A stretch of DNA of 64,000 bases from assembly GCF_002285285.1 (NCBI RefSeq), contig NZ_NSJF01000001.1, positions 496,001 to 560,000 of the forward strand, given 5' to 3'. Shown here in pieces: positions 22,294 through 53,969 of this stretch; the stretch's first letter is position 1, and each line of letters starts with the position of its first letter. Source of the stretch: Vandammella animalimorsus. GTDB taxonomy: Bacteria; Pseudomonadota; Gammaproteobacteria; Burkholderiales; Burkholderiaceae_C. Under the pieces are notes generated by a model, which saw nothing but the letters and a program-made list of their open reading frames with translations, ran no database searches and was not told the origin of the DNA. The position numbers and the translations under genes are program-made.

Positions 22294-24396
22294 ATGCGCA
22301 TTCCCTCCTCCTCATACCGCCCCATCGCCGACTTGCCCGACACCCTCATCAGCCAGATCGCGGCCGGAGAGGTGGTTGAGCGCCCGGCCTCGGTGGTGCG
22401 CGAGTTGCTGGACAACGCCCTGGACGCTGGCGCCAGCGAAATCCAGCTGCGGCTGTTGGCCGGCGGCATCCGCCACATCGTGCTGGAGGACAACGGTCGC
22501 GGCATGCCGGCCTCGGACCTGCCGCTGGCCATTCGCCGCCATGCGACCAGCAAGATCCGCAGCCTGGACGATCTGGAGTCGGTCACCACCATGGGCTTTC
22601 GCGGCGAGGCGCTGGCCGCCATCGGCTCGGTGGCGCAGCTGCGCATTGTTTCTCGCACAGCCAGCCAGCCCCAGGCCATGATGATCGATGCCGCCAGCGG
22701 CGTGCTCGAACCGGCCGCGCGGGCCGTGGGCACGACGGTGGACGTGCAGGAACTGTTCTTCGCCACGCCGGCGCGGCGCAAATTCCTCAAGGCCGAAAAC
22801 ACCGAGCTGGCACACTGCGTGGAGACCGTGCGCCGCCATGCGCTGGCCCGACCTGACGTGGGCTTTGCCATCTGGCACGGCGGTAAGCTGCAGCACCAGT
22901 GGCGCGCCGTGCCGTCGCAGGAGTCGCAGGATTCGGCGCAGCCGGCGCTCGCCGGCTTCAAGCTGCTGGAGCAGGCGCAGTGGGAGCGCCGCATTGCCGA
23001 CATCATGGGCGCGGAGTTCATGGCCCATTCCGTGCCCGTCGCCCATGAGGAAGGGGGCGTGGCCGTCTATGGCCGCGCCGGCATGCCGACCCACTCGCGC
23101 GCGCGCGCCGATCAGCAGTACAGCTTCGTCAACGGGCGCTTCGTGCGCGAGAAAACCCTGGCGCACGCCGCGCGTGCTGCCTACGAGGACGTGCTGCATG
23201 GCCAACGCCAGCCGGTGTACGTGCTCTACGTCGAGATCGACCCGCAGCAGGTGGACGTGAATGTGCACCCGACCAAGATCGAAGTGCGCTTTCGCGATGG
23301 GCGTGTGGTACACGCCGCCGTGCGCCACGCGCTGGAGCGCGCCCTGGCGCCTTCACGGGCGCTGGCAGGCGCGCCACCCGCTGGCGCCGCTGGAATCGAT
23401 GCCGCCATGGCCCTTGATGCGCCGGGCGGCATGGCCCAACCCATGGCGGCGCGATCGCCCTTGCCGCTGGCGCAGCAGCGCCGCCTGGGCTTTGCGGCCG
23501 ACATCGAAAAAACCCGCCAGACCTTGGCCGCACTGTGGGGCGATGGCGGCAATGCGCGCATTGCCAGCCCCGTGGGCGAGACCGCTGCCATGGCGGGGCA
23601 CCTGGCCCAGCAGCCCAAAGCGCCAGGCGCAGCGGCTTACTCCATGCCCACCGCAGGCGCAGCACCTCTGACGCTGCGCGAGTCGCCCCAGCCCTGGTCA
23701 ACCCAGACTGAAGCCGGGGCCGAGGCGCAGCCCGAGTGGCCGCTGGGGCGGGCGCTGGCGCAGCTGCACGGCGTGTACATCCTGGCGCAGAACCAGCACG
23801 GCCTGGTGATCGTGGACATGCATGCCGCGCACGAGCGCATCGTGTACGAACGCCTCAAGCAGGCATTGCACGACGCCCACATCCCCAGCCAGCCGCTGTT
23901 GCTGCCCGCAGCCTTTGCCGCCACCGCGCTGGAGATGGCCACGGCGGAAAAGCACGCCCAGTTGCTGGTGCAGCTGGGTCTGGAAGTCACGCCGCTGGCC
24001 GCGCAGCAGCTGGCGGTGCGCTCCATCCCCTCTGAGCTGCGCCAGGCCGACCCCGTCGAGCTGGCGCGCAGCGTGCTGGGTGAATTGGCCCAGCACGAAG
24101 ACCTGGGCATGCAGGCAGCGCCAGCCAGCGGCCCAGCGGACGGGCAGGGCGCGCTAGCCGCAGCGCCGCCCACCCAGCGCAGCGCCGTGCTGCAGCGCGC
24201 GCGCGACGAGGTGCTGGCCACCATGGCCTGCCACGGCTCGGTGCGCGCCAACCGCCAGCTGAGCATTGAGGAAATGAATGCCCTGCTGCGCCAGATGGAG
24301 GCCACGCCCCGCTCTGACCAGTGCAACCATGGCCGCCCCACCTGGCGCCAGCTGCGCATGGCCGAGCTCGACCAACTGTTCCTGCGCGGGCGCTGA
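22294..24396 (+). CDS. mutL: DNA mismatch repair protein MutL (endonuclease-type)
   Basis: 700 residues. The GHKL ATPase domain is clear: AAGEVVERPASVVRELLDNA (motif I), LEDNGRGM (II) and TMGFRGEALAAIGSV (III), followed by VDVNVHPTKIEVRF at the end of the transducer domain. A Pro/Ala-rich linker spans ~360-480. The C-terminal domain has DMHAAHERIVYERL, which fits the DQHA(X)2E(X)4E metal-binding endonuclease motif with Met in place of Gln, plus ACHGSVRANRQLS and CNHGRPTW, matching the ACR and C(P/N)HGRP motifs. So this MutL probably nicks DNA itself, as in organisms without MutH. It follows rlmE by 71 bases. Confidence 0.95.
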   Translation: MRIPSSSYRPIADLPDTLISQIAAGEVVERPASVVRELLDNALDAGASEIQLRLLAGGIRHIVLEDNGRGMPASDLPLAIRRHATSKIRSLDDLESVTTMGFRGEALAAIGSVAQLRIVSRTASQPQAMMIDAASGVLEPAARAVGTTVDVQELFFATPARRKFLKAENTELAHCVETVRRHALARPDVGFAIWHGGKLQHQWRAVPSQESQDSAQPALAGFKLLEQAQWERRIADIMGAEFMAHSVPVAHEEGGVAVYGRAGMPTHSRARADQQYSFVNGRFVREKTLAHAARAAYEDVLHGQRQPVYVLYVEIDPQQVDVNVHPTKIEVRFRDGRVVHAAVRHALERALAPSRALAGAPPAGAAGIDAAMALDAPGGMAQPMAARSPLPLAQQRRLGFAADIEKTRQTLAALWGDGGNARIASPVGETAAMAGHLAQQPKAPGAAAYSMPTAGAAPLTLRESPQPWSTQTEAGAEAQPEWPLGRALAQLHGVYILAQNQHGLVIVDMHAAHERIVYERLKQALHDAHIPSQPLLLPAAFAATALEMATAEKHAQLLVQLGLEVTPLAAQQLAVRSIPSELRQADPVELARSVLGELAQHEDLGMQAAPASGPADGQGALAAAPPTQRSAVLQRARDEVLATMACHGSVRANRQLSIEEMNALLRQMEATPRSDQCNHGRPTWRQLRMAELDQLFLRGR

Positions 24397-27455: not shown

Positions 27456-27548
27456 GCACCTGTTCAAAATCTCTGCTCGGCGCTCAAGAGAGCGGATGGG
27501 GGCACTCTGCGGCGTGTCGCCCCGCGGCGCGCCGCCAAAAACCGCCGC

Positions 27549-27591
27549 AAAAAACGCGGCCCATAGCGCGCGATGCGCTATGGGCCGCGTT
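27549..27591 (-). terminator. Terminator of the repeat-protein gene
   Basis: A 17-base perfect stem (27553-27569 with 27575-27591; arm end CATAGCGC / GCGCTATG) with a 5-base loop; on the minus strand it is followed by six T. It lies 56 bases after the stop of the minus-strand surface protein gene and would also separate it from convergent dnaB. Confidence 0.8.
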
Positions 27592-27646
27592 GCCTTGTGC
27601 GCGGCGCATGTGTGAGGGCCCCATCGGGCCCTCAAGCGCCAGGCCC

Positions 27647-30600
27647 TTATGCCCTGCGCTGGCGCATGGCGCGCCCGCCCAGCCCGGCGGCGGCCAGGGC
27701 CAGCAACAGCAGGGCCCAGAGCCTGAGCGTTGGCACCGGCACGGCCCCGCTGGGCGTTGGCGCGGCAATGAACTGCGCGCTCACCGTCAGCGGCGCGCTC
27801 ACAGGGCCGAGCGTACACACCGGCCCCGTGGCCGCCGCGCACGCGCCGCCAAAGCCATTGAAGACAAAGCCTGCATTGGCCGTGGCCGTGCAAGTGGCAT
27901 TGCCGCCATCGGGCACGGGGTTGGGCGAGCAGACGACTGTGCCGCCTGCCGCCGGGTTGGCCGTAGCGGTGATGGCGTGCGCGGGCGCTGCTGCGGGCTT
28001 GAAGTTCGCCACCACATTCTTGGGCGCGATGACATTGCTCAGCGTGCAACTGTCACCCGTGGCGCTGGCGCAATCGCCGCCAAAGCCATCAAACGCATAG
28101 CCCGTGGCTGGTGTGGCCGTGCAGGTGGCATCGTCGCCATCGGGCACCGGGTTTGGCGTGCAGCTCACCGTGCCGCCTGCCGCCGGGTTGGCCGTAGCGG
28201 TGATGGCGTGCGCGGGCGCTGCTGCGGGCTTGAAGTTCGCCACCACATTCTTGGGCGCGGTGACATTGCTCAGCGTGCAACTGTCACCCGTGGCGCTGGC
28301 GCAATCGCCGCCAAAGCCATCAAACGCATAGCCCGTGGCCGGCGTGGCCGTGCAGGTGGCATCGTCGCCATCGGGCACCGGGTTGGGCGTGCAGCTCACC
28401 GTGCCGCCAGCGGCGGGGTTGGCCGTGGCGGTGATGGCGTGGGTCGTGGCCGTGGCGGTGAAGCTGGCCGTCACGCTCTTGGCGCTGGTCACGTTCGTCA
28501 GCGCGCAGCTTGCGCCTGCGCAATCGCCGCTGAAGGCGCTGAAGGTGTAGCCTGCGTTGGCCGTGGCCGTGCAGCTGGCATTGCCGCCATTGGGCACCGG
28601 GTTGGGCGTGCAGATGACTGTGCCGCCCGCCGCCGGGCTGGCCGTGGCCGTAATGGCATGGCCCATCACAAACGTGGCCGAAACGGTCTTGGGCGCAGTC
28701 ACGTTGCTCAGCACACAGCTTGTGCCGCTGCAATCGCCGCCAAACGCGCCCAGCGCATAGCCCGCCGCAGGCGTGGCCGTGCACACGGCATCGCTGTCGT
28801 GGGGCACTGGGTTGGGCGTACACGTCACGCTGCCATTGGCGCTGGGCGTGATGGTGATCGCATGCGTGGCGCTGGTCAGGGGCTTGAACGTCGCTACCAC
28901 CGCCTGCGCGGCCAGCACATTCGTCAAGTTGCAGGTTGCGCCCGTGCAATCGCCGCTGAAGCCGTCAAACGCATAACCGGCATTGGCCGTGGCCGTGCAA
29001 GTGGCGCTATCGCCATTGGGCACCGGGTTGGGCGCGCACGTCACCGCGCCGCCCGCTGCCGGGTTGGCCGTGGCCACGATGGCATGCGGGCCAGCGCCGC
29101 CGCCCACGCGGGTGAAATTGGCCGTCACCGTCTTGGGGCCCGTCACGCCGGCCACATCGCAGCTCTCGCCCGCCACGCTGGTGCAATCGCCGCCAAAGCT
29201 GTCAAACACATAGCCGCCTTTGGCCTGCACACGGCAAACCGCCGTGCCGCCATCGGGCACCGGGTTGGGCGTACACACCACATAGCCGCCCGCCGCCGGG
29301 CTGGCCGTGGCCGTAATCACATGCTCGCTGGCGCTGCCCACCAGCGGCGCAAACTGCGCCGTCACCGTGCGGTCGGTCGTCACATTCGTCAGCGAACACA
29401 GCAGCCCGGCCACCGTGTCACAGCCGTTCAGAGAGGCCAGGCCAAAGCCCGGCGCGGGCAAGGCCCCGCAAAAACTCGTGCCGCCCGTAGGCACGGCGGC
29501 AGGCGTGCAAACCACCTCCCCGCCGCCTGCCGGGTTGGCCTGCACCGTGATCGCATGATCGGCCTGCACAAAATCGGCCCGGAAACTCGCGTTCAAGCCC
29601 ACGCCTGTGAGCGTACACACCGCCCCGCCGCTGGCATCGGGCGAGCACGCACTGCTGGCGTTGCTGCTCAAGGCCGAGCCAAAAGCAAACCCCGCCGCAG
29701 GCGTTGCCACGCACACACTGGCACCACCCGTGGCCACCGGGTTGGGCGTGCACTGCACCGTGCCTGCGCCCGCAGGCTGCACGCCCGTGGCAATCGGGTG
29801 CGAGCCTGGCGTGGCGAAATGCGCCGTCACCGTCACCGGGGCCGTCACATTCGTCAAATGGCACTGCCCGCCAAAACACGGCCCGCTAAAGCCCGAAAAC
29901 GTATAACCCGCATTGGCCGAGGCCGTGCACGACACATTGCCGCCTCGGGCCACCGGGTTGGGCGTGCAAGTCACGTTGCCGCCGCCTGCCGGGCTGGCCA
30001 CCGTAAACACCTCCACCGGCGGGGCAAACGTGGCCGTCACGCTCTTGGGGCTGGTCACGTTCGTCAGCGTGCAGCTGGCGCCCGCGACGCTGGCGCAATC
30101 GCCGCCAAAGCCCGTGAAAACCCAATTGCCCGGCGGCGACACCGTGCAGGTGGTCTCGCCGCCGTGCTCCACCATCGTGTGGGTGCATTTGAGCCCGGGC
30201 GCCAAGTATGCCGGCGTCGTCGCCAGGGTAATGGCGTGAAAGCTCGACGGCAAACCGGCCGGAGTCAGCCGCGCCAAGATGTCGCGGCTTTGGCCGCCTT
30301 CGGTGAGGCGGATGCTGTCGCCGCCCACCAGCAGCTTGCCATCGGGCTGGGGGGTGAAGTGGTAGATGCCGCGAGTATGGATGTTGCGCTCCCACTCAAG
30401 TGCCGGCAGGCTGACGCTGGTATTGCGCGCGCCATCGGGGTTCAGCAGGGCCAACGTGGTGCCGCCCAGCAGAATCTGGCCGTTGGGCAGCACATGCATG
30501 GCCCAGACCTGCTCACTGCCCAGATCCGTGGGCTGGAAAGAGAAATCCACCTTGCCATCGGGCTTGAGCCGGTAGACGTCGAAGGGCGCTGCAGACGGGT

Positions 30601-31546
30601 AAATCTGCAGCGACCGGCCGCCCACCAGAATGTCCCCGCTGGGCAGCACGGCCAGGGCGCGCACCTGACCACCGGTTTTCCTGAACCACTGCACCGTGCC
30701 ATCGGGGCGCAGCCGGTACAGGCCCGTTTGTGCAGGGTCAGGGGGGTTGCTCACCCCCGCCAGGGCCCCGCCATCGGGCAGGGCGTGCAGCGCCGTCACT
30801 TCCGAGCCATAGGGCAGGGCGTTGGCAAAGCCCGTGTCGCGGCTGCCATCGGCATTCAGGCGCGCCAGGCCGTGGGCGGGCGCGGTGCCCACGGCCGTCA
30901 AGGCGCCGCCCACCAGTACCCTGTCGCCCGGCGCCCAGGCCAGATGCCTGAGGCGGAAATTGGCATCGCCGTGAATCGATGGCGCGGTAAAGCTGGTATC
31001 GACGCTGCCATTCGGCGCCAGCCGCGCCACGCCACCGGTGCTGTGCCCCCCGACCTCCGAGAGGCCGCCGCCCACCAGCATCCGCCCGTCGGGCTGCTGC
31101 ACGAGTACGAAGAAGTTGTGACTGCCCACCTCAGACAGCCGCCGATCCAGCGAGCCATTGGGCTTGAGTAGCGACAAACTCGCGAAATCGGTCGTCCACA
31201 GGCGGCCATCGGGCAACAGGCCCACGCCATAGCTTGGGTAGATGGTGTGCGGGTATGGGTATGTGTAATCAAACCCCGTATCCAGGCTCAGGCTCTGGGC
31301 CTGGGCGGCGCTGGCCGCGCCCAACGCCAGCGCGGCGCCAGCCAACCAATGGCCCCAGCGCCGCGCTGCGCGCCTCAGGCGCCCCAATCTCGGGGGGGGG
31401 GGGGGGGGGGGGAGGTTAAGGAGGAATGCCTTTGGGGGCAAAAGGGGGGGAACCCCCAAAAGTGTGCTGGGCAGGGAAATGCAAAAAAGCAAAAACCACC
31501 GCAGCCAAACGCCCGCACAACAGCCCGGCCACGGGAAAACAATCAT
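27647..31546 (-). CDS. Large repeat-rich secreted protein with IPTL-CTERM sorting signal
   Basis: About 1299 residues from the ATG at 31546; the frame is open to a GTG at 31624. A hydrophobic N-terminus is followed by a proline run encoded by a 21-G tract, then a typical signal peptide RRWGHWLAGAALALGAASAA-QAQS. The next ~300 residues have repeated LLPDGR / LNADGSRDTGF / QPDGKLLVGG units of the delta-60 (beta-propeller-like) type. Then about 11 Cys-containing repeats of ~70-77 residues, e.g. ITATANPAAGGTVSCTPNPV ... NVTAPKNVVANF, of the InlB-B/Flg_new-like kind. It ends VPVPTLRLWALLLLALAAAG plus MRQRRA: PTL..W, a membrane helix and a basic tail, i.e. an IPTL-CTERM signal handled by exosortase H in bacteria that have it. 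Surface adhesin-like; function unknown. True start uncertain because of the G tract. Confidence 0.8.
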   Translation of the reverse strand: MIVFPWPGCCAGVWLRWFLLFCISLPSTLLGVPPLLPPKAFLLNLPPPPPPPRLGRLRRAARRWGHWLAGAALALGAASAAQAQSLSLDTGFDYTYPYPHTIYPSYGVGLLPDGRLWTTDFASLSLLKPNGSLDRRLSEVGSHNFFVLVQQPDGRMLVGGGLSEVGGHSTGGVARLAPNGSVDTSFTAPSIHGDANFRLRHLAWAPGDRVLVGGALTAVGTAPAHGLARLNADGSRDTGFANALPYGSEVTALHALPDGGALAGVSNPPDPAQTGLYRLRPDGTVQWFRKTGGQVRALAVLPSGDILVGGRSLQIYPSAAPFDVYRLKPDGKVDFSFQPTDLGSEQVWAMHVLPNGQILLGGTTLALLNPDGARNTSVSLPALEWERNIHTRGIYHFTPQPDGKLLVGGDSIRLTEGGQSRDILARLTPAGLPSSFHAITLATTPAYLAPGLKCTHTMVEHGGETTCTVSPPGNWVFTGFGGDCASVAGASCTLTNVTSPKSVTATFAPPVEVFTVASPAGGGNVTCTPNPVARGGNVSCTASANAGYTFSGFSGPCFGGQCHLTNVTAPVTVTAHFATPGSHPIATGVQPAGAGTVQCTPNPVATGGASVCVATPAAGFAFGSALSSNASSACSPDASGGAVCTLTGVGLNASFRADFVQADHAITVQANPAGGGEVVCTPAAVPTGGTSFCGALPAPGFGLASLNGCDTVAGLLCSLTNVTTDRTVTAQFAPLVGSASEHVITATASPAAGGYVVCTPNPVPDGGTAVCRVQAKGGYVFDSFGGDCTSVAGESCDVAGVTGPKTVTANFTRVGGGAGPHAIVATANPAAGGAVTCAPNPVPNGDSATCTATANAGYAFDGFSGDCTGATCNLTNVLAAQAVVATFKPLTSATHAITITPSANGSVTCTPNPVPHDSDAVCTATPAAGYALGAFGGDCSGTSCVLSNVTAPKTVSATFVMGHAITATASPAAGGTVICTPNPVPNGGNASCTATANAGYTFSAFSGDCAGASCALTNVTSAKSVTASFTATATTHAITATANPAAGGTVSCTPNPVPDGDDATCTATPATGYAFDGFGGDCASATGDSCTLSNVTAPKNVVANFKPAAAPAHAITATANPAAGGTVSCTPNPVPDGDDATCTATPATGYAFDGFGGDCASATGDSCTLSNVIAPKNVVANFKPAAAPAHAITATANPAAGGTVVCSPNPVPDGGNATCTATANAGFVFNGFGGACAAATGPVCTLGPVSAPLTVSAQFIAAPTPSGAVPVPTLRLWALLLLALAAAGLGGRAMRQRRA
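27860..30180 (-). repeat. Tandem Cys-rich repeats in the surface protein gene
   Basis: Consecutive repeat units of about 210-231 bases coding for CTPNPVPxG-type domains. The two units around 27985-28445 are nearly identical at the DNA level over 231 bases (for example CATAGCCCGTGGC recurs 231 bases apart at 28096 and 28327), the protein copies differing at about one residue (NVTAPK versus NVIAPK). Other units are diverged to varying extents. The near-identity indicates recent duplication or gene conversion and makes the copy number prone to change. Confidence 0.85.
31392..31412 (+). repeat. Homopolymer G(21) tract in the 5' part of the surface-protein gene
   Basis: Twenty-one consecutive G on the plus strand (C on the coding strand), giving a seven-proline run just before the signal peptide. 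Long G/C homopolymers are prone to slipped-strand length change. The only ATG that reads in frame into the protein is upstream of it (31546), so a change by one base would shift the frame before the signal peptide. A sequencing or assembly error in tract length is also possible. Confidence 0.9.
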
Positions 31547-31826
31547 TAAACACGATTTGCCACAGGTTTTTGCATTTCTGATAAGTGCGCTGGGGCTTGA
31601 TCGCAGGGCCAAGGGCTTGTTCACGCCGCGCCAGAAGCGCGCGCCGGGGTTGCGAGGGGAATTTACGGAGGCTTACAGGAACTTACAGGGGGCTGCGAGG
31701 ATGTGATAAAGGCCCGCCAAGCCCTGGGCACGCGGGCGCATCCGGGACGCGCATAATGCCCGGTTTGCCCACCGCCGCCGCAACTGTAGGCATAGGCGCG
31801 GCGGGCCGACTTTTTTTGCCTTTGCC

Positions 31827-32522
31827 ATGAACGCTGCATTGCACACCGGGCCCCGGCCCGTGGACCTGATCGCCTTTGACTGGGATGGGACCTTGTTCGA
31901 CTCCACCGCGCTGATTGCGCGCTGCATCCAGCAGGCCGTGCGCGACGTGGGCGGCACGCCGCCCGATGAGCAGCAGGCGAGCTGGGTCATCGGCATGGAG
32001 CTGGGCAGCGCGCTGGCGCGGGCCGCGCCCGATGTGCCGCCCAGCGCCTATGCCGAGCTGGCGCGCCGCTACCGCTACCACTATGTGCAGCAGCAGGACG
32101 AGATCGTGCTGTTCGACGGCGCGCTGGAGCTGTTGCACGACCTCAAGGCGCGCGGCTTCTTGCTGGCCGTGGCCACGGGCAAGAGCCGCCGCGGCCTGGA
32201 CCACGTGCTGGCCAGCCACGATCTGCACGGCCTGTTCGACGACTCGCGCACCGCCGATGAAACCGCCGGCAAGCCCAATCCGCTGATGCTGCAGGAGCTG
32301 ATGCAGGTGCACGACGTGGCGCCTGCGCGCCTGCTGATGATTGGCGATACCAGCCACGATCTGGAAATGGCGCGCAACGCCGGTTGCCCCAGCGTGGGCG
32401 TGGCCTATGGGGCCCATGCTGGTGATGGCCTGCAGCAGTTCGCGCCACTGGCCGTGGCCGATTCCGTGGCCATGCTGCGCCAGTGGCTGGAGCAACACGC
32501 CGAGCCGGGGCGCCGCCCATGA
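31827..32522 (+). CDS. HAD-family hydrolase, phosphoglycolate phosphatase-like
   Basis: 231 residues of the beta-phosphoglucomutase/phosphoglycolate phosphatase-like HAD subgroup. Motif I is FDWDGTLFDSTA (nucleophile Asp), motif II VATGKSRRGLD, the conserved Lys in ETAGKPNPLMLQE and motif III LLMIGDTSHDLEMARNAGC. An alpha-helical cap lies at ~25-95. The substrate is probably a small phosphorylated metabolite. In Burkholderiales this gene commonly follows rluC; here the divergent repeat-protein gene is upstream instead. Its stop overlaps the Rieske gene start (ATGA). Confidence 0.9.
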   Translation: MNAALHTGPRPVDLIAFDWDGTLFDSTALIARCIQQAVRDVGGTPPDEQQASWVIGMELGSALARAAPDVPPSAYAELARRYRYHYVQQQDEIVLFDGALELLHDLKARGFLLAVATGKSRRGLDHVLASHDLHGLFDDSRTADETAGKPNPLMLQELMQVHDVAPARLLMIGDTSHDLEMARNAGCPSVGVAYGAHAGDGLQQFAPLAVADSVAMLRQWLEQHAEPGRRP

Positions 32523-51800: not shown

Positions 51801-53969
51801 TCAGAAGCGGCGCAGGCGGCCCAGCCCCAGGGCGGCCGTGGCCAGGCTCAACAGCCACAGCATCCAATGGCCCAGGGTGGGCACGGGCGTGGCATTGCCG
51901 GGCACTGGCGCTGGGCCGGCGCTCACCGTGAAGCGGATCGCAGCCTGCACGCACTGGGCAGGCGTACTGCGATCGCACAATTGGTATTGAAGCGTGTAGC
52001 TGCCTGCAGGCACCGATGCGGCCATGCGCACTTCGCCCGTGTTCGCATCCAGCGTGATGCCCGCAGGCCAAGTGCCCACCATGGAGACCGTGGCATTGCC
52101 GCCAGTGCCCAGCGTGGCGGGCTGGCCATTGATGGTGTCGTTTTGGACGATGTTGTTGACCACGATGGCGTCCGTGCCAGCGGGCAGGGCCTGCGGGCGG
52201 ATGTCGTCCGCAGCGGCCACAGGCGTTGCCGAGACCGTCAGCGTGATCGTGCTGTCGGTGCAATTGGGCGTGGGCATTGCGCGGTCGCACAGCTTGTAGT
52301 TCAGCGTGTGCACGCCAGCCGACGTGGCCACCGTGGTGCTGACGACGCCCGTGTTCGGGTCAAGCGTGACGCCAGCGGGCCAGGCGCCGACCGTGGCCAC
52401 GGTGGCATTGCCGCCGGCGCCCAGCGTGGCCGGCTGGCCGTTGACGAAGTCATTGGCGGCGATGTTGGGCACGGCATCGGGCTTGGCGGTGCCGGCGGTG
52501 GCGCTGCCGCTGTCGGGCGTTGGCGCGATGCTGGTATTGACCGTCAGCGTGATCGTGCTGTCCTGGCAATTGGGTGTGGGTGTGGCGCGGTCGCACAGCT
52601 TGTAGTCCAGCGTGTGCACGCCCGCTGGCGTGGCCGCCGTGGTGCTGACGACGCCGGTGTCCGGATCGAGCGTGACGCCAGCGGGCCAGGCGCCGACCGT
52701 GGCCACGGTGGCATTGCCGCTGGCGCCCAGCGTGGCGGGCTGGCCGTTGACGAGGTCATTGGTGGCGATGTTGGGCACGGCATCGGGCTTGGCGGTGCCA
52801 GCGGTGGCGCTGCCGCTGTCGGGTTGCGGCGCGATGTCCGGGTCGATGCGCACCTTGATGGTGGCGGTGTCGCACAACGGGTCAGGTTTTGTGCCAGCGT
52901 TGCAGATCTTGTAGGTCAGTGTGTGGGTGCCAACGGCGGTAGTGCCGGCCACGGCGAGTGTGCCATCGGCGTTCAGGCTGATGCCGGGCACGGTGGCGGT
53001 CAGCTCCGCGCTGGCCACGTTGGCCTGCGTGGCCTGGGAGCGGTTGACGCTGTCGTTGGTGAATACCGGCCCGATGGTGGCGGTCGCGCCTGCCGGAATG
53101 GGGGTGCTGGTGTAGTCGTCATCGACGGCGTCGATGTAGGTGGCCGGATCGCTGGGGTCGAACAGGGCGCTGGGCGGAATGTCTTCGATTGCGCCGCCCG
53201 GGGTGACCCATTGCACGTTCAGGTTTGCGTCCGAGCCCCAGTTGTTCCAGACCACGCGCAGGTTGTACAGCCCTTCTTGCAGTGCGGCGGAATTGGGCGC
53301 GTCGTAGCCGCCCTGGGGCGTGCCGATAGTGGCGCCGATGGCCAGTTTCTGGCTGTAATCCAGCACGCGGTAGTGCACGCCGCCGTCGCGGTTGGCGTCG
53401 ATCAGCGCGCCGTCGTTGCCCTGCTGCACGCGCAGCTTGTAGCCCGCTGCGGGCAAGTGCACGGCCACGTACATCACCGCGCCTTCGATGCCGTTCTTGC
53501 AGGCGGCCTCGCCGGCCTGGGGCCAGGTGCCGCCGGCGCGGTTGTATTCGCACAGCACATTGGCCCCACTGGGGATGTTCAGCGAGGGCAGGGTCTTGGT
53601 CAGCGCGGTGCCGGCCACGGGCGCCGGGGCGCCGGTAACGCCGGAATCGACCGCATTGCCGCCCGGTGGCGTGGCATGGGCCAGCAGCCGCTGCAGGGCG
53701 GCCAGACGCGCTTCGGGCGTGCCTGCGGATGGGTTGGCCGAATTCAGGCGCGGGATGTTGTCGTAATAGGGCTCCAGCGCCTTGCCGGGCAGCCAGCGCG
53801 GGAAGTTGACGTTGTTGCTGGCCGGCGGCTGCATGGGGCCTTCATGGCCCCAGCCGCGGTAGGAATCGACCTGCACGGGGGCGGCCAGCGCCCAGGGGCT
53901 GGTTGCCAGCAAGCTCAGCAGCAGCGCCGCAGGGCGGGCTGGCCGGTGGATGGGACGTGGGTGGCGCAT
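51801..53969 (-). CDS. Secreted multi-repeat protein with IPTL-CTERM sorting signal
   Basis: 722 residues from ATG 53969, preceded by AGGAG. A signal peptide (RPAALLLSLLATSPWALA-AP) leads to an N-terminal domain (~30-280) with SYRGWGHEGPMQPPASNNVN and NGIEGAVMYVAVHLPAAGYK. Then come four Ig-like/cadherin-like units of ~105 residues with IAPQPDSGSATAGTAKPDAV, NDLVNGQPATLGASGNATVA, WPAGVTLDPDTGVVSTTAAT and YKLCDRATPTPNC; two of them are almost identical. The C-terminus NATPVPTLGHWMLWLLSLAT followed by AALGLGRLRRF is PTL..W plus a membrane helix and basic end: an IPTL-CTERM signal. Probably anchored at the cell surface. Function unknown. Confidence 0.82.
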   Translation of the reverse strand: MRHPRPIHRPARPAALLLSLLATSPWALAAPVQVDSYRGWGHEGPMQPPASNNVNFPRWLPGKALEPYYDNIPRLNSANPSAGTPEARLAALQRLLAHATPPGGNAVDSGVTGAPAPVAGTALTKTLPSLNIPSGANVLCEYNRAGGTWPQAGEAACKNGIEGAVMYVAVHLPAAGYKLRVQQGNDGALIDANRDGGVHYRVLDYSQKLAIGATIGTPQGGYDAPNSAALQEGLYNLRVVWNNWGSDANLNVQWVTPGGAIEDIPPSALFDPSDPATYIDAVDDDYTSTPIPAGATATIGPVFTNDSVNRSQATQANVASAELTATVPGISLNADGTLAVAGTTAVGTHTLTYKICNAGTKPDPLCDTATIKVRIDPDIAPQPDSGSATAGTAKPDAVPNIATNDLVNGQPATLGASGNATVATVGAWPAGVTLDPDTGVVSTTAATPAGVHTLDYKLCDRATPTPNCQDSTITLTVNTSIAPTPDSGSATAGTAKPDAVPNIAANDFVNGQPATLGAGGNATVATVGAWPAGVTLDPNTGVVSTTVATSAGVHTLNYKLCDRAMPTPNCTDSTITLTVSATPVAAADDIRPQALPAGTDAIVVNNIVQNDTINGQPATLGTGGNATVSMVGTWPAGITLDANTGEVRMAASVPAGSYTLQYQLCDRSTPAQCVQAAIRFTVSAGPAPVPGNATPVPTLGHWMLWLLSLATAALGLGRLRRF
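52300..52935 (-). repeat. Near-identical ~306-bp repeats in the IPTL-CTERM gene
   Basis: Two adjacent Ig-like units are near-identical over about 300 bases (for example the ACGCCAGCGGGCCAGGCGCC segment recurs at 52371 and 52676). The third unit, nearer the C-terminus, has diverged (NATVSMVGTWPAGITLDANT). Recent duplication of one unit explains this; such repeats may vary in number between strains. Confidence 0.75.

Follow-up and report, generated by a model that had tools for sequence, protein, structure and literature searches.

A run of 21 C residues near the start of a gene for a large exported repeat protein makes this gene a plausible, although unproven, candidate for phase variation in Vandammella animalimorsus. 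The whole stretch of DNA analysed, 64,000 nucleotides, is referred to here as the window. The tract had been noticed in a first-pass annotation as a G21 tract of the + strand at 31392-31412, and the letters of the window bear this out; on the coding (-) strand it is read as C21. The runner-up homopolymer of the 64-kb window, counting runs of any base, has 7 residues. The 3.08-Mb genome holds ten C/G runs of at least 9 residues, and C21 is the only one of at least 12, the second being 11. C21 is therefore the longest C/G run of the genome and stands far above the chance expectation, which a second-order composition model puts at ~2e-7 runs of at least 21 per genome. The tract is isolated and lies inside a contig of 793 kb. 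Read on the opposite (+) strand, G21 gives way at 31413-31428 to AGGTTAAGGAGGAATG, which contains a Shine-Dalgarno-like stretch and an ATG; this ATG opens by eye a short frame of ~50 codons, probably by chance.

The gene is read from the - strand, with its stop at 27647 and candidate starts at 31387, 31441 and 31546; with the favoured start it covers 27647-31441 and codes for 1264 amino acids. Its product contains DUF5122/delta-60 propeller repeats and ten stretches of Flg_new_2, the divergent InlB B-repeat, and carries an IPTL-CTERM tail (27656-27739, -); there are no internal stops over 1246 codons. The N-terminal signal peptide is clear by eye in the translation. A repeat protein with a sorting tail had been proposed before, and Pfam agrees, even if the IPTL-CTERM score of 20.9 bits is a bare pass over the cut-off of 20.8 bits; in the genome-wide search the score was 27.9 bits. 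XrtH pairs with IPTL-CTERM proteins, and the genome codes for one XrtH (TIGR04177, 237.8 bits) alongside eight IPTL-CTERM matches. The two occur together in 7 of 10 genomes of the genus, and the remaining 3 have neither.

The positions of runs and matches were compared over the genome. Among the eight IPTL-CTERM genes, the window gene alone has a C/G run of at least 9, and no such run was found at the places of the other seven; the genome-wide run list likewise has none at the IPTL gene of locus L107. Since only one of these eight genes has such a run, and similar tracts are found at ordinary genes in the family (see below), the tract does not characterise IPTL-CTERM genes in general. A home-made pattern for IPTL-like tails, applied to short loci, matched only the window gene near the surveyed tracts; of its three controls, L107 and L281 were missed though their tails lie inside the loci, and the L040 tail lies outside its locus, so that this comparison was uninformative. 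A second IPTL-CTERM gene of the window (51807-51890, -) has an ordinary Shine-Dalgarno sequence and ATG; the stretch inspected is free of C/G runs of at least 7. Inside the window gene, a tandem repeat at 27881-28441 (period 231, 2.4 copies, 94% matches) consists of InlB-B-type repeats that could also recombine.

The phase-variation reading depends on the start codon, for which the sequence offers more than one candidate. In the C21 allele, no stop interrupts the frame between 31672 and the signal peptide. This frame offers as possible starts ATG 31546, GTG 31624 and several TTG codons, including 31441, and, past the tract, TTG 31387. The first-pass annotation had named ATG 31546 (31544-31546, -) as the only in-frame ATG, and it is indeed the sole one upstream of the tract. 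As a start it is poor, and the least convincing of the candidates: inspection of the leader revealed no Shine-Dalgarno sequence, the resulting leader is unlike that of the paralogue described below, and a second hydrophobic stretch, WLRWFLLFCISLPSTLLGV by eye, is added. TTG 31441, TTG 31387 and the other alternatives had not been listed, and either of these two TTG codons is a likelier start than ATG 31546. The favoured one, TTG 31441 (31439-31441, -), has a Shine-Dalgarno-like run of five G residues upstream (GGGGG, 31453-31457, -), which gives the best anti-Shine-Dalgarno pairing in the leader (-7.9 kcal/mol) and lies inside a predicted local hairpin. The leader read from this codon, MPPKAFLLNLPPPPPPPRLGRLRRAARRW...AQAQ, resembles that of the paralogue, MHPSQAARPLPQLFPPPPRKFECLRRLARW...AQAQ, in layout and is of similar length, in an alignment where the aligner may favour pairing of the two first residues. 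With this start the signal-peptide leader would extend over 31298-31441 (-) and end ...ASAAQA, the cleavage site being placed by eye. No site of the AGGAGG type was found ahead of the tract, the GGGGG run being the best, and a promoter scan of 31200-31900 found no promoter. The leader RNA folds no better than its shuffles (z 0.27), and a special structure as a whole was therefore given no weight.

The rival codon, TTG 31387 (31385-31387, -), is located 4 nt past the tract, which it would place in the 5' UTR. Its product has a complete short signal peptide, MGRLRRAARRWGHWLAGAALALGAASAAQAQ, textbook-like by eye, with the tract left out. Frame arithmetic separates these starts. From ATG 31546 or TTG 31441, the full protein is read at tract lengths of 18, 21 and 24, and the products have 21-92 residues at lengths of 19, 20, 22 and 23. 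A TAA directly before the tract (31416-31418, -) shuts the upstream frame at lengths 20 or 23; with 19 or 22 residues, GTG 31518 and TTG 31542 are still present in the upstream frame, both without a Shine-Dalgarno sequence. From TTG 31387 the full protein is made at every length from 18 to 24. Hence, the tract length bears on the frame if translation starts at ATG 31546 or TTG 31441, and not if it starts at TTG 31387; the earlier statement that slippage by one or two bases would turn the protein off holds for the former two starts and fails for the latter.

A pointer to a translated tract comes from a paralogue in the same genome (G000:C6), which is 44% identical over the N-terminal part and has counterparts in genomes G006 and G009. 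The paralogue and these counterparts have a Shine-Dalgarno sequence (AGGAGG in the paralogue), an ATG and a leader of the form MHPSQAARPLPQLFPPPPRKFE.L.RLARW. At the site homologous to C21 they carry C6TC7, which is hence translated there. Translation of the tract is favoured because this Pro-rich leader, which follows a proper Shine-Dalgarno sequence and start codon, holds an interrupted C run where the window gene has C21. On the other side, the DNA similarity between the window gene and the paralogue is clear only from the tract onward.

No orthologue of the window gene was found in 60 relatives or in 398 family genomes. Its N-terminal part was matched in 6 of the 60 relatives, none closer than ~45% except the gene itself. 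A family-wide profile search gave matches in 8 of 398 genomes at E<=1e-20, with near full-length matches in G000, G006 and G009 alone. A protein search of genome contigs found no orthologue, and a profile search of genome contigs found the paralogue alone, in Allofranklinella schreckenbergeri; nine plasmid records had weak delta-60-type matches, and none reached 80% query coverage. In G006, G008 and G004 the genes read by eye as dnaB-like and HAD-like enclose no copy of the window gene with its short flanks (27469-31731). Five genomes entered this comparison; for G003 the alignment covered the HAD side alone and the G009 piece gave no alignment, so that neither was informative. From its absence in these three genomes, the segment may be regarded as a lineage-specific accessory insertion beside dnaB, or else as lost in G006, G008 and G004. 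Elsewhere in the window, an intact frame at 22294-24396 (+) reads by eye like mutL; the stability of tracts is affected by mismatch repair, in which MutL acts.

Next in length among the C/G runs of this genome is G11 at G000:C6:275152-275162 (L281, gene from 4088). It too is in frame, within a signal peptide, MKHKKHKVTFVRSAVLLACLTAGGGAWAQ, that belongs to a 954-amino acid exported protein (DUF6923). The tail of this protein looks like a sorting tail by eye; Pfam makes no IPTL-CTERM call, and PEP-CTERM scores 10.4 bits, below the cut-off. The G11 run is not present in related sequences of G005, G006 and G009. C21 and G11, the longest C/G runs here, thus both lie in signal-peptide regions, which is suggestive only, with n = 2 and noticed afterwards. 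Within the genus, a gene read by eye as proA starts with ATGAATACGGCAG followed by C19 in G009 (L113, G009:C2:124462-124480), and in G005 (L233) it has an interrupted C5-ACT-C6-T-C4 leader of the same length. To judge from these sequences, the two proA leaders would represent the same kind of change as C21 versus C6TC7. A C9 run at L028 (G000:C7:293567-293575) lies in the N-terminal leader MTDTAVPPPAYSRILLKLSGEAL of a pyrH-like gene; pyrH is usually essential. When 9 tracts of G000 were compared with 30 genus loci (of 81 places), the only shared sites were two self-matches.

Runs of at least 14 C were found in 84 of 399 family genomes. Many of the C/G tracts in the family lie at contig ends or are clustered, and these are probably artefacts. 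The proximity of tracts to starts was assessed on 91 loci (30 + 1 loci among the matches listed and 60 hand-chosen regions), of which 31 were excluded for contig ends, several tracts or N runs, leaving 60 isolated interior tracts. The criterion was an ATG 3-30 nt upstream of the tract that opens a frame of at least 120 codons. In this sample of listed matches and hand-chosen regions, such an ATG preceded 12 of 60 tracts read in the C sense, against 5.4 expected (P 0.007), and 8 of 60 read in the G sense (P 0.17). Eighteen hand-picked loci were inspected, and in 10 of them an ATG lies within 28 nt of the tract. This ATG is in frame with the downstream gene in six (L083, L113, L142, L157, L161 and L181) and out of frame in three (L156, plus L148 and L165 by hand count); in the tenth, L174, a stop lies between the ATG and the tract. 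L104, L127, L168, L171 and L179 count in the 60-locus survey and are outside the 18 inspected. The genes with start-proximal tracts were read by eye as proA, fumC, prfC, dgkA and a chemotaxis receptor. At L156 (G255:C136), a C20 run is found at the start of a fumC-like gene whose nearest upstream ATG is out of frame, which could reflect an off-phase allele, another start or an assembly error. As read from these loci, tracts at ordinary genes weaken the idea of a special surface-protein device and would fit tolerance of proline-coding tracts at gene starts. Since comparable tracts occur at the starts of housekeeping-like genes, a tract alone is no proof of selected phase variation.

Long G/C tracts that drive phase variation of surface proteins in other genera had been invoked for this gene, and in Bordetella the process is documented: as described in the portions of PMC1891110 consulted, poly-C phase variation is established there, in the Burkholderiales, and surface proteins have variable C/G tracts in their coding regions. 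The autotransporter genes tcfA and bapC would resemble the window gene, if its tract is translated, in that a long C/G run falls inside a surface-protein reading frame and that out-of-frame lengths are predicted to truncate the product. Pure and interrupted alleles occur there as well (bapC, 35 versus C6TC5; PMC1891110, Table 1); the protein families are different. The fimbrial genes fim2, fim3 and fimX are preceded by poly-C tracts about as long as C21 (C20, C22), and have interrupted alleles C9TC8 and C6TC3 (for fim2, C20 versus C9TC8; PMC1891110, Table 1). However, the fim tracts overlap a mapped promoter, whereas at the window tract the scan found no promoter and a place in the leader is more likely. 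Length variation in Bordetella was shown within single cultures (PMC1891110), whereas for the window tract the comparison, with a single genome for each species, showed no length variant. The proA pair of the genus, C19 and interrupted, may by analogy resemble the pure and interrupted Bordetella alleles of that report. From the part of Orsi et al. (2010, PMC2831843) consulted, homopolymeric tracts at the 5' end were proposed as general off-switches; a start-proximal homopolymer that permits efficient inactivation is common to both cases, but those tracts are poly(A)/poly(T) and the window tract is a poly(C) of 21. Among the titles and abstract openings of the open-licence literature, no paper was found on phase variation of IPTL-CTERM or exosortase-sorted proteins, and a search of the open-licence literature found none on homopolymeric-tract phase variation in Comamonadaceae/Acidovorax.

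We propose that C21 could be a slippage-prone poly-C (polyproline) segment within the translated signal-peptide leader of a large surface protein. Replication slippage would alter its length: at 21 (or 18 or 24) residues the full protein would be made, exported and handed over to the XrtH sorting system, and at other lengths short frameshifted peptides without a signal peptide would result. Cells would thereby flip an accessory surface protein on and off by translational phase variation, with whatever benefit this might bring. Translation of the tract as part of the leader, with a switchable gene, is the most likely of the readings considered, and we rate it somewhat short of an even chance. 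The candidacy put forward in the first-pass annotation is reasonable in view of the frame arithmetic, the translated interrupted C-tract of the paralogue and the process known from Bordetella; its start at ATG 31546 is less likely than either TTG codon, and the tract is not typical of IPTL-CTERM genes.

If translation starts at TTG 31387 instead, the tract would belong to the 5' UTR, and slippage would leave the frame untouched and at most tune initiation or mRNA structure. The textbook signal peptide MGRLRRAARRWGHWLAGAALALGAASAAQAQ, the full protein at all lengths from 18 to 24 and the lack of a good Shine-Dalgarno sequence at the upstream starts speak for this, as do tracts just before the ATG of aceA-like (L185) and RND adaptor-like (L102) genes in two family genomes. 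However, TTG 31387 has no Shine-Dalgarno sequence either, only C21 and GAGA being ahead of it, and the homologous C-rich site of the paralogue is translated after a proper ATG; we regard this reading as less likely than a translated tract, but as a serious rival. A further serious rival, somewhat less likely still, is that slippage lengthened the tract at a site where this is tolerated, the dispensable N-terminal leader of an accessory and possibly poorly expressed gene, with no regulatory role. The scatter of long C tracts over 84 of 399 genomes, their presence at genes read as proA, fumC, prfC and dgkA, and their restriction to one of eight IPTL-CTERM genes are all compatible with such neutral growth, and so is the location in a lineage-specific insertion with no recognisable promoter. 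Against it, C21 is in frame, as is the G11 of the other exported protein, and the 1246 codons are free of internal stops. Homopolymers of ~21 bases are prone to sequencing error, and many family tracts are artefactual in appearance, so that the C-rich site might be genuine and its count wrong through assembly or sequencing. This is improbable for C21, which is isolated, deep in its contig and in frame, and has a C-rich counterpart at the homologous site of the paralogue.

A translated and switchable C21 would extend Bordetella-type poly-C phase variation to repeat proteins sorted by an exosortase, and to a further family of the Burkholderiales. It is doubtful, though conceivable, that start-proximal polyproline-coding poly-C tracts form a general contingency system in the Comamonadaceae, serving XrtH-sorted surface proteins and metabolic genes (proA, fumC, prfC) alike, with interrupted alleles as the stable and pure alleles as the hypermutable state. 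A handful of tracts close to gene starts lend themselves to testing: C21 and G11 of this genome, and the C19 run of proA in another genome of the genus.
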